A stretch of 54,208 nt of DNA from Akkermansia muciniphila. GTDB taxonomy: Bacteria; Verrucomicrobiota; Verrucomicrobiia; Methylacidiphilales; Verrucolacustridaceae. The notes beneath the pieces are model-generated. The model was not told the origin of the DNA. It ran no database searches and saw only the letters and a program-made list of their open reading frames with translations. Shown in pieces: positions 5,843-13,152 of this stretch. The stretch lies in the NCBI GenBank assembly GCA_945878585.1, contig CAMDXQ010000004.1, positions 1 through 54,208 on the forward strand. Direction: 5' to 3'. The number at the start of each line of letters is the position of its first letter. Position 1 is the first letter of the stretch. The position numbers and the translations under genes were made by a program.

Positions 5843-8359
5843 GTGAATAATTTCACCCCACGCGCCCAGCAAGTCCTCGCCCTTGCTCGCAAGGAGGCCG
5901 ACCGCTTCAACCACAACTACGTGGGAACGGAACATATCCTCCTCGGCCTAATCAAGCTTGGGCAAGGCGTCGCCGTCAACGTACTCCAGAAAATGGGGCT
6001 CGATTTAGAAACGGTTCGGATGGAAGTCGAAAAGCAGGTCGGCACTGGGCCCGACACCAAGGTCACGGGCAATATCCCCTATACCCCCCGCGTGAAGAAG
6101 GTTCTCGCTCTGGCCAGCAAAGAAGCCAAGGCCCTCCATCACTCCTACGTCGGCACGGAGCATATTCTCCTCGGTCTTCTTCGGGAAGGAGACGGCGTAG
6201 CCGCCCGCGTCCTCAAATCCCTCGAGGTAGACATCGAACGCGCCCGTCAGGAGGTTCTCAAAGAACTCGATCCAAATTTTGAAGAAGGCGCAGAACCCCA
6301 AGGCGGAATGGAAGAGACAGCCTCAGCCGGTCCCGAATCCACCCCCTCTGCTGGAGCCGCCCCCGGGCGGAAGGACTTAAAAACCCCAGCCCTCAAGGCG
6401 TTTGGCCGGGATCTCACCGAGCTTGCCCGCAAAGGTGAAATGGATCCCGTTATCGGACGTAAAAATGAAATCGAACGTGTCGTCCAGATCCTCTGCCGCC
6501 GAACCAAGAACAACCCCGTCCTCATCGGGGAAGCCGGCGTTGGCAAAACTGCCATTGTGGAAGGCCTCGCCCAGGAAATCGCTTCGGGCAACGTGCCCGA
6601 AATTCTTCGCGACAAAAAAGTCATCACTCTCGATCTCGCCCTGATGGTCGCGGGCACGAAGTACCGGGGTCAGTTCGAAGAACGAATCAAGGCCGTGATG
6701 GAGGAAATTCGCAAGCTGAAGTCGGTCATCCTCTTCATCGACGAGCTTCATACCCTTGTCGGGGCCGGTTCAGCCGAAGGCGCCATGGATGCCTCCAACA
6801 TCATCAAGCCCGCCCTCTCCCGCGGGGAACTCCAGTGTATCGGTGCCACTACGATGAACGAGTACCGCAAGTACATCGAAAAGGACTCTGCCCTCGAACG
6901 CCGCTTTCAGACGGTTCGCGTGGATGCCCCCACAATCGACGAAGCGATCGCTATCCTTCACGGACTCCGCGCCAAATATGAAGAGCATCACCATGCAAAG
7001 ATCTCGAACGAAGCCATCGCATCCGCCGTTCGCCTAAGTGAGCGCTATATCACGGGTCGCTATCTCCCGGACAAAGCCATCGATGTGATGGACGAGGCAG
7101 GATCCCGTTGCCGCATCGCCGCCAGTATTCGTCCGCCGGAGTTCAAATCCGCCGAGGCTGAGATCGAAACCATCCGTGCCGACAAAGAGGCGGCCATCAA
7201 AGCCCAAGATTTTGAAAAAGCCGCTGCCCTCCGCGACCGCGAAAAAGAGGCTACCGCCAAACTTGAAGCTGACCTGAATGCTTGGCGGAAAAAACGGGAT
7301 GAAATCATCGTCGATGTTGGCGAAGAGGACGTTAAGCACGTCATCTCGAAATGGACTGGCATCCCTCTAACTCGGATGGGCGAAGGCGACCTCTCAAAGC
7401 TTCTCAACATCGGGGAAACCCTCCAATCCCGCGTCATCGGCCAAAACGAGGCTGTCCAAGCACTCGCAAAAGCTCTCCGCCGCTCCCGTGCGGACCTGAA
7501 AGATCCAAAGCGGCCCATTGGTTCCTTCATCTTCCTTGGACCTACCGGAGTCGGAAAAACCCACCTTGCCAAAGCTCTTGCCGAAGAGGTTTTTGGGGAA
7601 AAAGACGCTTTGGTTCAACTCGACATGTCCGAATACATGGAGAAATTCAACGTCTCCCGGCTCATCGGCTCCCCTCCCGGATACGTCGGGTACGAGGAAG
7701 GCGGTCAGCTGACCGAAAAAGTACGGCGTCGACCCTACTGTGTCGTTCTGTTTGATGAGATCGAAAAGGCCCATCCCGATGTTTGGAATGTGCTTCTCCA
7801 AATCCTCGAAGACGGGCAGGTCACCGACAGCCTTGCCCGAAAGGTCGATTTCCGAAATACCATCATCATCATGACATCGAACGTGGGAGCCGAGTTGATT
7901 CGCAAGGGCAACGTAATGGGCTTCGGCACTCCCGTTCACGAACAGGACTACAACGCCATTAAGGAAAAGATTCTCGGAGAGACGAAAAAAATCTTCAAAC
8001 CGGAGTTTCTCAATCGGCTCGACGATCAGATCGTCTTTCACTCTCTTACCCGCGAAGACCTTTCCAAGATCGTCTCCCTCGAGGTCGCCAAAGTTGCAGC
8101 CCGGGTTAGGGAAAAGGGGGTGGAAATCGAACTCACCCCAGAGGCCTCCACCTTCCTCATCGAGAAAGGCTACGAGCCCGTGTACGGCGCCCGTCCGCTG
8201 CGACGCGCGATCGAAAGATATCTGGAGGACCCGATCGCCGAAGAAGTTATTCGCGGGAAAATTAAGTCGGGAGATCGAGTCAAGGTTGGGGCCGACAAGG
8301 AAAACCTTACCTTTACGACCACTTCACCCAGCGCACCCGCCAAATCCACCGCCAGCTGA
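5843..8359 (+). CDS. clpC: ATP-dependent unfoldase ClpC
   Basis: ClpC unfolds proteins and feeds them to the ClpP peptidase, here probably those marked by McsB. The 838 residues show two N-terminal Clp repeats (about 1-145, each with [12 protein letters not shown]-type sequence, the phosphoarginine dock in Bacillus), an acidic/proline linker, the first AAA+ domain with Walker A GEAGVGKT at 229-236, a UVR-type coiled segment at about 438-473, and the second AAA+ domain with GPTGVGKT at 566-573. The start is GTG at 5843, 24 bases after mcsB. The tail after about 820 is short and Ser/Thr/Ala rich. All features of the ClpC (not ClpB or ClpA) subclass are present. Confidence 0.96.
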
Positions 8360-9042
8360 ACACGCCCGATCACGCCTCGCGGATCCGCACTCTTTTCGGC
8401 GATCTCGCACCCTCCTACGACCGCTTCAACCGCCTATTTAGCCTCGGCCTCGATGTCGGCTGGCGAAAGAAGCTTGTCGCCTCCCTCGCCCCTCTATCTC
8501 CCAAAAAAATCCTCGATCTGGCCTGTGGCTCGGGCGACGTCAGTCTGCTTCTTCAAAAAGAATTCCCCTTAGCCGAGGTGATCGCCCTGGATTTCTGCCG
8601 GCCTCTACTCGATCAGGCAAAAGCCCGGGGGGTAAAACAAACCGTGGATGGCGATGCCCTCAACCTCCCCTTCCCGAATCAATGGATGGATGCCGTCACT
8701 CTCGCCTTCGGACTGCGTAACTTTGCCGACCGCCCCAAGGGGCTTGCGGAAATCCACCGGGTCCTTCAACCAGGCGGGGTCTTTGCCTTGCTGGAATTCA
8801 GTCCTCCCCCCTTCCCATGGAAATTCTTTTGGGACTTTTACCTGTTTCATTTCATGCCCTGCGTCGCCCAACTTCTCAGCCGCCAAGGCGACTCCTTTCG
8901 CTACCTCGCCCGTAGCATCTCGGAATTCCCCGCCCCTTCCGACCTCTACCACGAACTCCACGAAGCTGGGCTTAAACTTCTCTTTACGCGCTCGATGTCC
9001 CTCGGATTGGTCAGACTGACTGTCTGCAGAAAACTTCCTTAA
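8356..9042 (+). CDS. menG: UbiE/MenG-type quinone C-methyltransferase, apparent CTG start
   Basis: This SAM-dependent enzyme makes the last C-methylation of menaquinone (or ubiquinone). DLACGSGD at residues 54-61 binds SAM, and the second half carries NLPFP, LAFGLRNFADR and HRVLQPGG, all diagnostic of UbiE/MenG. The family N-terminus (FGDLAPSYDRFNRLFSLGLD) is plainly encoded from about 8395, but no ATG, GTG or TTG occurs in frame between the stop at 8263 and 8578, which would cut off the SAM site. CTG at 8356 overlaps the clpC stop as CTGA, exactly like the ATGA junctions elsewhere here, and gives 228 residues, the normal length. Which quinone is used cannot be decided. No Shine-Dalgarno is visible, so expression would rely on coupling to clpC. 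Confidence 0.88.
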   Translation: MNTPDHASRIRTLFGDLAPSYDRFNRLFSLGLDVGWRKKLVASLAPLSPKKILDLACGSGDVSLLLQKEFPLAEVIALDFCRPLLDQAKARGVKQTVDGDALNLPFPNQWMDAVTLAFGLRNFADRPKGLAEIHRVLQPGGVFALLEFSPPPFPWKFFWDFYLFHFMPCVAQLLSRQGDSFRYLARSISEFPAPSDLYHELHEAGLKLLFTRSMSLGLVRLTVCRKLP

Positions 9043-9310: not shown

Positions 9311-11161
9311 CTACAACTGATGTTCGTTCTCTAAAAATCCACGCAGATGCCGGATCCGCGTCGGATGCCGCATCTTCCGCAAAGCCTTGGCCTCGATCTG
9401 ACGAATACGTTCCCGGGTCACCTTGAACTGGCGCCCCACCTCTTCCAGTGTTCGGGAATATCCGTCCACCAGACCGAACCGCTGCTCCAATACCGCCCGT
9501 TCCCGGTCGGTCAGACTGTCCAACACATCCTTGATCTTCTCTTTCAACATCGAGTAGGCCGTCATGTCAGATGGGTTTTCGGCGCTCTTGTCCTCGATGA
9601 AATCCCCAAAGGTCGTATCGTCGCTATCTCCCACCTGCGCCTGCAGCGAAATCGGTTGCTGGGCCATCTTGAGAACCGCCCGCACCCGTTCCACCGGCAT
9701 CCCTGTCTCGTCCGCTACCTCTTCCGGAGTCGGTTCCCGACCAAACTCCTGCACCAACTGCTTCTGCACACGCATCAGCTTGTTGATGGTCTCGATCATG
9801 TGAACCGGGATACGAATCGTCCGGGCCTGATCCGCAATGCTCCGTGTGATCGCTTGACGGATCCACCACGTGGCATAAGTCGAAAACTTGTAGCCTCGCC
9901 GATACTCAAACTTCTCCACCGCCTTCATCAAGCCCATGTTTCCCTCTTGAATCAGGTCAAGGAACGAAAGTCCGCGATTCGTGTACTTCTTCGCAATCGA
10001 AATGACCAACCGCAAGTTCGCCTCCACCATCTCCGTCTTGGCCCGCATCGCTTTCCGTACCCACTCCCGCAAATCCCGGTGGTGAGTGAAAAATTCATCC
10101 CGAGTTAGCCGCGACCCGTGCTCGATTTCCTCAATCTCCTCTTTCAGGGCCTTCTTCCGGCTTTCCTGCTGCCGACTCCTGGACTTCGATTTGTGAATCG
10201 ACTCCAACTCTGCTGTCTTATCCTGTAACTGGCGGTGAATGTTGTCCGCTACGGCAATAAACTCCTCCAACACTTTCTGCTTAAAGAAAAATTTAACAAA
10301 AAGCTTTTCTGCGGCTTCCTGCTGTTTGGACAATTCTTTCAGGACTCGGCTTTTCGCGAGTGCAGATTTTGCCTCAAACATCCGGGCGTATACTTTGTGG
10401 GACTTTTCGTGAACGGAGTGGAGTTGCTTGACCAGCGTTTTCAACGCCGTCATGTATTTTTCACGCCCCTCTATTTTTTTGTCCTGAATCACCCGGTCGA
10501 ATCGCTCACGGGAATTGAGAAGCTTTTCCCCAAGGGAAATATATTCCTTCGCGATAAATCCGAACTTGTGCAAATGCAGAACCGCTCCGATGTCCGACTC
10601 CTCGATTCTCTTGGAAATCTCCACTTCCTGTTCCCGGGTCAACAGAGGAACCTGCCCCATCTGACGCAGATACATCCGGACGGGATCATCCAGAATATCT
10701 AGCTTTTCGGGCTTCTCGTCAGTGACCACAGCCTCGCTGCCATCCTCTTCCCGCGCCGGCTTTTTATACCGGTCAACTTCACTCGACTCGATCACGTCGA
10801 TTTCGAAATTACGCAAGAAAATCAGAACCGCTTCTACCTGCTCCGGCTTTGTCACCGTCTCCGGCAACGCCTCGTGCAAATCGTCGTAGGTCAGGTACCC
10901 CTGCTCCCGAGCCAGCTTGATCAGTTCCCGCAGGCGCTCCTGTTTTTCAGCGCTCTGCGCCCAGATTCCCAGCCCATTGTTCTCCGCCGTTGGGGTGGAA
11001 TCGTTACCATTCAAAGCTTCCTTGGCCTCCACCTCCGCCGCAGCCAAATCGGCCTCCGACGGTTCTTCCGACATCACGGGCGGTTCTTCTGCCTTCACCT
11101 TCGCCCTAGAAGCGCTCAGTTTCGGTGCTTTGATCGACTTGCTTTTTGCTACTTTTTTCAC
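9311..11161 (-). CDS. rpoD: RNA polymerase primary sigma factor RpoD
   Basis: 616 residues, the housekeeping sigma-70. An acidic, Ala/Glu-rich leader precedes region 1.1 (about 70-130), region 1.2 begins at [16 protein letters not shown], and a non-conserved coiled-coil insert of about 160 residues stands between 1.2 and 2. Region 2 has the [20 protein letters not shown] stretch near residue 425 that melts and reads the -10 box. Region 4 ends with the helix-turn-helix [20 protein letters not shown] for the -35 box. GTG at 11161 is the start. It follows dnaG by 46 bases, the classic primase-sigma pair of the macromolecular-synthesis operon; rpsU is absent from this pair. Confidence 0.97.
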
Positions 11162-11207: not shown

Positions 11208-13064
11208 TTAAGCATTAGCTTTCACTGCCCCTGCTGTCAAACGCGCCCTTTTCCTAAGCAGTTCCCCCTGCTGGCGAAGGACTTCCACCGCGTCGGGATC
11301 TCCCGCCGGCATAGCCCGAAGTTTTGCCGATAACCTTTCCGCCTCCCGCCTTAAATAATCCCCCTCCAGCCTCCCCCCAAGACCCTCCAATGCCTTGTCC
11401 CAATCCTCTTCTTGCGACTTCTCCCACACCCCGGCTTCCAAGCCCGTCAAAAAATCCTGCTCCTCAGCCAACAGTTGCGGCAAAAGATCCCCCAAGCCCG
11501 TCCATAAATCGTTTCGGGATAAATCCCGAATCTTCAAATAGAGCTCCTCCCCGCCGAGATTTTTCAACCACAACTCATCCACCCGTCGCTCCATTTCTGG
11601 AAATTTTGAGGGCTGTCCCAACACCAGAAGAAAAAGTTCCCGCATCACCGGATGTACTTCCAAAGGTTTCGCGATCTGGATTCCCGGAGGCTCTTGTCGC
11701 TCACTCCGGACGGCGATCTTGGCCGCTACTCCCCGTGCCTTTTCCACTTCGTCCATCACTAGATTTTCTCCCAACCCAAGCCGAGAGGCCGCCCTCGCCA
11801 CCAAGCCCGTACGACTGACCGCACTTTCCACCATCCCCAACAGCTTGGCCACCGCCTCCACCACCCTCCTTCTTCCCGCAGGGGTTTCTCCCTCCTGCTT
11901 CGTCTGCCAGTCCACATAGAAATCTAAAAAGTCCACCGCCGCCTCCAGCTTTTCACGAAACGCCTCCGCCCCGCCCCGCCGAATCAAAGAATCCGGATCA
12001 TCCCCCGCTGGCAAACGCACGACCTTCACCCCCAACTCTGCTTTTGCCACCCCCCCCCAACCCTGCCCCCCTTCCAACAAAATCCCTCCCAACCTCCCCG
12101 CCGCCCGATCCCCCGCAACGTCCGCATCCAGACAAATCACAATCTCTTTTGCAAAACGCCCAATCAATTTCGCATGCTCCTCCGTAAATCCCGTGCCCAA
12201 CGGCGCCACCGCCTCCAAAAACCCTGCCGCCTGAGCCCGTAACACATCCAACTGCCCCTCACAAACAATGGCTCTTCCCTCCTCAGCCATCGCCCTTCGC
12301 GCACGATCGAATCCAAACAGTACCCGCCCTTTTTTGAAAATTACTGTTTCGGGCGAATTCACATACTTCGGCTCCTCCGGTCCCGCACCCGACAAAACCC
12401 GCCCACTAAATGCAATCACCCGACCCCCTTCATCCAGAATCGGGAACATCAGCCGATTCCGAAACCGGTCATACACCCGGCCCGACTGCGCGCGAAGTGC
12501 CACTCCAGAAGCAATCATCTCCTCCTCTGTAAAACCACTCTTCTTTCCCCAATCCAAAGTTGCCGTCCAAGCCGCAGGGGCATACCCCAAGCCAAATCGT
12601 GCAATCCATTCGAGGGGAATTTCACGCTCCTTCAAATAGGCCCGTGCGGCCTCCGCAGACGGATCCTTCGCCAACAGATCCCGCCAATGAATCGCAAGGG
12701 ATGCGTGAATCTGCCTCAACCTCTCCCGCTCCGCTCCACTTCCCCCATCTCCCCCTCCTCCACCTCCCGCTTCCTCCTCCAGATGCACTCCCGCTCGCTC
12801 TGCCAACCGCCGCACTGCCGCCGGAAAATCCAATCCCTCCGTCATCATCAAAAAACGAAAAACATCCCCTCCCGTCCCCGTGCTGAAGCATTTGAAGAAC
12901 TGCTTGTCAGGATGAACGTAGAAAGAGGGGGTCTTTTCCTTCTTAAACGGACTCAGCCCCCGAAAATTGCTCCCGACCCGTTTGAGTTGAACCACCGCTC
13001 CCGCCACCTCCACCAGATCACTCGCCCTTCTTACCCTTTCAATCGTTTCGGCAGAAAACCCCAT
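11208..13064 (-). CDS. dnaG: DNA primase DnaG with a degenerate zinc-binding site
   Basis: The replicative primase that lays RNA primers on the lagging strand. ATG at 13064 has GGAG six bases ahead and gives the normal N-terminus MGFSAETIERVRRASDLV; an in-frame start 12 codons upstream is less likely. The N-terminal domain keeps its framework (FRGLSPFKKEKTPSF, FFKCFSTGTGGDV) but the four zinc ligands of E. coli (C40, H43, C61, C64) read S38, K41, C59 and T62. A glycine tract follows at about 94. The catalytic TOPRIM core is intact: EGQLDVL with its glutamate, and CLDADVAGDRAA with the D-x-D metal pair. The C-terminal helicase-binding part is divergent. 618 residues, operon with rpoD. Confidence 0.95.
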   Translation of the reverse strand: MGFSAETIERVRRASDLVEVAGAVVQLKRVGSNFRGLSPFKKEKTPSFYVHPDKQFFKCFSTGTGGDVFRFLMMTEGLDFPAAVRRLAERAGVHLEEEAGGGGGGDGGSGAERERLRQIHASLAIHWRDLLAKDPSAEAARAYLKEREIPLEWIARFGLGYAPAAWTATLDWGKKSGFTEEEMIASGVALRAQSGRVYDRFRNRLMFPILDEGGRVIAFSGRVLSGAGPEEPKYVNSPETVIFKKGRVLFGFDRARRAMAEEGRAIVCEGQLDVLRAQAAGFLEAVAPLGTGFTEEHAKLIGRFAKEIVICLDADVAGDRAAGRLGGILLEGGQGWGGVAKAELGVKVVRLPAGDDPDSLIRRGGAEAFREKLEAAVDFLDFYVDWQTKQEGETPAGRRRVVEAVAKLLGMVESAVSRTGLVARAASRLGLGENLVMDEVEKARGVAAKIAVRSERQEPPGIQIAKPLEVHPVMRELFLLVLGQPSKFPEMERRVDELWLKNLGGEELYLKIRDLSRNDLWTGLGDLLPQLLAEEQDFLTGLEAGVWEKSQEEDWDKALEGLGGRLEGDYLRREAERLSAKLRAMPAGDPDAVEVLRQQGELLRKRARLTAGAVKANA

Positions 13065-13152
13065 ATATCTCCGTTTTCTCTCCTCCCTGCCAGCCCGCAA
13101 GCCTTTCCCCCCAGTTGCTCAACCCCCCACTTTCCTGCATCTTAATAACTTC

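Follow-up and report, generated by a model that had tools for sequence, protein, structure and literature searches.

A single-copy replicative DnaG primase lacking three zinc ligands, and the recurrent zincless state in Verrucomicrobiae

The window, the whole stretch of 54,208 nucleotides analysed here, carries dnaG on the reverse strand at 11208..13064, encoding a DNA primase of 618 aa, with rpoD (sigma-70 family; 9311..11161, reverse strand) immediately downstream. The gene begins with an ATG at 13064, as it does in relatives; an in-frame TTG at 13100 is a possible alternative start. The full-length model TIGR01391 (dnaG) scored 385.9 bits against a cut-off of 283.6. PF01807 matched residues 5-98 with 96.9 bits (cut-off 24.9), and PF08275 (DNAG_N core) and PF13155 were both matched as well. 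The N-terminal CHC2/zinc-ribbon domain (ZBD; residues 5-98, 12771..13052, reverse strand) is followed by the RNA polymerase/TOPRIM domain (about residues 112-440, 11745..12731, reverse strand). The C-terminal region (about 441-618, 11211..11744, reverse strand) is predicted to be helical and is presumed to be the helicase-binding domain; a weak match to PF10410 (residues 393-433) lies just upstream of it. The catalytic TOPRIM residues E269, D273, D313, D315 and D356 are invariant across our alignment, in agreement with a sequence-only reading of the locus, which had described them as kept.

Elsewhere in the window, a ubiE/menG-like methyltransferase gene follows clpC (8356-9042, forward strand) and has no ATG, GTG or TTG at its N-terminus. 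Its start is likely the CTG at 8356, which overlaps the TGA stop of clpC (CTGA) and is also present in two relatives (L432, L440).

The source genome, from a lake bacterium, is a draft MAG of 1.48 Mb in 120 contigs, about 88% complete. A profile search of it matched PF01807 once, in the dnaG of the window, and one DnaB was counted. Seven complete, one-contig genomes of the order each have one CHC2 match and one DnaB, and no match to the Prim-Pol family. The earlier statement that this is the only DnaG, adjoining rpoD, was borne out, and a second DnaG with intact ligands, which would have spoken against that reading, was found neither in the source genome at its 88% completeness nor in the seven one-contig genomes. 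The window's DnaG is the cell's ordinary replicative primase, present in a single copy. Some genomes of families f4 and f5 have a second, long primase-like ORF of about 900-1000 aa (L124; G280:C89, G220:C8, G235:C145); these ORFs probably lie on mobile elements.

Alignment to zinc-type DnaGs places S38 (AGT, 12951-12953) at the column of E. coli C40, K41 (AAG, 12942-12944) at H43, and T62 (ACG, 12879-12881) at C64. C59 (TGC, 12888-12890), at the C61 column, is the sole ligand kept. All these codons are on the reverse strand, and the ligand spacing of 3, 18 and 3 is the same as in zinc-type DnaGs, just as the sequence-only reading had described. The framework around the site, which it had called intact, is indeed kept (G31, P39-F40, E43, P46-S47-F48, G66), and G31, P39, F40, E43, P46, S47, F48, C59, G66, F80 and A83 are near-invariant in zincless and zinc-type domains alike. 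Three further positions on the reverse strand enter into what follows: S61, the Ser at the column of E. coli G63, which together with T62 occupies 12879..12884; Y49, an aromatic residue (12918..12920); and K58, directly before C59 (12891..12893). The C-x2-H ... C-x2-C ligand pattern of PF01807 is absent, with S38, K41, C59 and T62 at its four positions. Judged by its sequence, the domain is a CHC2 (PF01807) member by descent without a zinc-binding CHC2 site, and with these residues a normal tetrahedral CHCC zinc site would be impossible.

An assembly error or a contaminant might be suspected in a draft MAG of this kind. However, every member of the genus with a readable N-terminus has S-K-C-S or S-K-C-T, in independent assemblies, which rules out sequencing error, and the same state occurs in one-contig genomes of the order; we regard the chance of an artefact as negligible. 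The close named relatives, 77-94% identical, are mostly labelled 'Verrucomicrobia subdivision 6' or are unclassified Verrucomicrobia MAGs, and the order is probably Methylacidiphilales/subdivision 6. Throughout this order, the one-contig genomes of about 2.3 Mb included, the columns read S-[N/K/Q/T]-C-S wherever the domain is readable. Only genus g7, in family f5, departs from this, being CHCC. One contig titled 'Candidatus Paceibacterota' (JASGCJ010000011.1, L035) has the genus's dnaG at 93% identity and is probably from a mislabelled or mixed MAG.

We surveyed the ligand columns in about 260 domains, mostly from Verrucomicrobiota, with one truncated row set aside. CHCC was found in 145 of them; the remainder have lost C40, H43 and C64 together, and a partial state, with one or two of these three lost, was seen in none of the roughly 260. 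Within the class, 18 of the families sampled are zincless only, and f5 and f19 are mixed; 65 families of the phylum are zinc-type only. Every family sampled outside the class is CHCC, as are all sampled domains from Acidobacteriota, outside the phylum. Because the families sampled outside the class are all CHCC, the zincless state is derived within the class. Viral contigs show the same binary pattern, with 24 of 80 zincless. For Bacteroidota the evidence comes from phages and plasmids: the Flavobacterium and Cellulophaga phages are zincless, as is a Persicobacter plasmid (S-N-C-Q), and Prevotella is CHCC. What had been read as a peculiarity of one primase is therefore found in nearly the whole order, originated more than once within the class and is frequent among viral contigs; the proposed alignment of the four columns across many genomes showed a state that is shared and binary.

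The H43 column of the zincless domains varies (N/K/T/Q/S/A/V), and nearly all of them have Cys at the C61 column; family f45 and some phages have Asp there. In f45 (L222, L224, L227) the last ligand is thus also replaced, giving S-N-D-S; some primases of Flavobacterium phages likewise have the Asp, an apparent convergence.

To count changes of state we used a tree built on the DnaG catalytic core, with the ZBD excluded. This tree needs 7 switches, of which well-supported branches force at least 6; a single change of state was found in 0 of 200 bootstrap trees. A single origin, with all zincless rows constrained to one clade, was rejected (p_AU 2.6e-8). The constraint that placed the zincless rows of the order in a clade excluding g7 was also rejected (p 0.007); the alternatives are therefore a regain of the full site by g7 or several additional losses. 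In the best tree the zinc-type f19 sequences are nested inside a zincless, Opitutales-like clade, a placement that was not significant (p_AU 0.25). On these data, zinc use at the CHC2 site behaves like an all-or-none trait, with repeated losses in class Verrucomicrobiae. It is conceivable, but we think unlikely, that the site is a reversible toggle between two discrete, stable states, CHCC+G and S/T-x-C-S-S/T with an aromatic residue at column 49, that g7 regained all three ligands inside a zincless order, and that the zincless state alters the choice of primer start.

All-or-none switches are also what a transfer or swap of the N-terminal segment between DnaGs would yield, and the recurrence could then be explained by exchange instead of repeated substitution in place. 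However, with the ligand columns aside, the ZBD of g7 most resembles zincless domains from its own order; the zincless f19 ZBDs resemble one another most and, after that, the zinc-type f19 domains. Because the g7 and f19 ZBDs resemble domains of their own lineages, a swapped-in segment is unlikely.

Loss of the ligands might also mark a domain in decay. In animal Twinkle, the primase part of a DnaG/T7-type protein has changed in sequence and its zinc motif has been lost, and in the window three of the four ligands are gone. Against decay stand the low dN/dS of the ZBD (0.007-0.05 within the genus, where estimable), which indicates constraint no weaker than that on the polymerase domain, the near-invariant framework common to zinc-type domains, the retained catalytic residues, and the persistence of the zincless state across whole families and an order. 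We consider degeneration with loss of ZBD function highly improbable. A Twinkle-like inactive primase domain was rejected, as the TOPRIM residues are kept. Since the ligands were lost repeatedly while the shape of the domain stayed under strong selection, this essential protein can evidently do without zinc.

The AlphaFold model of the window's DnaG has a pLDDT of about 84-92 over residues 11-90 of the ZBD, and in a Foldseek comparison the predicted domain matches zinc-bound 1d0q at 0.9 A over 92 columns. The prediction is supportive rather than independent, because 20 of the 29 rows in the input alignment were zinc-type and AlphaFold may impose the zinc-type fold. The sequence-only reading had offered a fold without zinc or a replaced stabilising core. 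The fold is predicted to persist; the replaced core is so far suggested by recurrent substitutions at two positions. In 34 of 35 zincless genera the Gly at window column 61 (E. coli G63) has given way to Ser. An aromatic residue occupies column 49 in 25 of 32 zincless rows, against 3 of 34 zinc-type rows; across independent pairs it accompanies the loss of zinc in about 4 of 6, with the opposite association almost never seen (p about 0.06-0.13). The recurrent Ser at 61 and the aromatic 49 would fit a substitute core, for which they are suggestive evidence.

A metal could still be coordinated by C59 together with new ligands, such as an acidic residue at column 53, or Y49 and K41. C59 is nearly always kept, and column 53 is acidic in 53% of zincless rows, up from 9% of zinc-type rows. 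But no fixed new Cys or His takes the place of the lost ligands, the H43 column is variable, and C59 is itself Asp in some lineages; we think a non-canonical metal site quite unlikely.

Zinc sparing across the proteome in a zinc-poor niche could have driven the loss, and a precedent exists in the C+ and C- forms of ribosomal protein S4 (PMC3087516). The PriA zinc-ribbon model, however, was matched in 20 of 20 genomes (L269-L288), zincless-DnaG lineages included, with eight Cys kept (one locus was read in part), and the four-Cys zinc site of LigA is kept in the window's genus. The zincless lineages also presumably span very different habitats. Because the PriA and LigA zinc sites are intact, the loss is not genome-wide zinc sparing, an explanation to which we give very little weight. 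Among the proteins tested (PriA and LigA), the residues present indicate that zinc-site loss is specific to DnaG.

We consider it likely that the window's ZBD is a metal-free, structurally compensated template-recognition domain in an ordinary replicative DnaG. We infer that metal is absent in vivo and that a substitute core would replace zinc in holding the ribbon fold. In detail, the C40 and C64 columns would contribute Ser or Thr to this core, the H43 column Asn, Lys or Thr, and the G63 column Ser, along with the Cys that persists at C61 and, in most cases, an aromatic residue beside the TPSF motif. Template recognition would be retained, with the zincless ZBD still docking the start site of the template against the polymerase domain. 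In B. subtilis, template binding requires the integrity of the ZBD plus the polymerase domain (PMC5429622). In C. difficile the preferred start moves between CCC and CTA according to a single residue adjoining the zinc ribbon, K70, with K favouring CCC; A. aeolicus and C. perfringens also have K at this position, and G. stearothermophilus, like apparently others, has H (PMC5204125). We take the K70 position to be the residue directly before the third ligand, which would be K58 in the window's DnaG, and by analogy K58 predicts a CCC-type start preference. Since K58 is at the K70 position, any shift in priming may be set by K58, not by the missing zinc.

The surprising part is the recurrent all-or-none switching. 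Zincless and zinc-type DnaGs within the same families are natural matched pairs, which separate the role of zinc (fold stability, template recognition) from the role of the domain, and the missing intermediates lead to the prediction of a fitness valley. The findings also caution against annotating, or drug-targeting, the CHC2 zinc site as universal. A review describes the DnaG zinc ligands as highly conserved (PMC6163395), and we found no published description of a zincless DnaG in the open-access literature; public genomes plainly contain such sequences.

Compared to the DnaGs of G. stearothermophilus (1D0Q) and A. aeolicus (2AU3), the window's protein has the same domain order, fold (0.9 A, predicted), ligand-column spacing, TPSF framework and TOPRIM residues; it differs in the three replaced ligands, the G63 to Ser change and the lack of a zinc site. 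The zincless primases of Flavobacterium, Cellulophaga and other phages (L191, L192 and viral contigs) share the S-x-C/D-S replacement and, in nearly all, the Ser at G63. However, they are carried by phages or plasmids, several have Asp at C61, and the aromatic 49 is often absent. Animal Twinkle, a T7 gp4-like protein, is described as having helicase activity only (PMC3610141), whereas the window's DnaG keeps its catalytic residues and is the cell's only DnaG. Ribosomal protein S4 is likewise an essential information-processing protein whose zinc and zinc-free forms are scattered over the tree; in S4 the Cys residues were lost gradually, from two to one to none, with horizontal transfer also involved (PMC3087516), whereas the loss in DnaG is all-or-none, apparently in place, and without a pair of paralogues.
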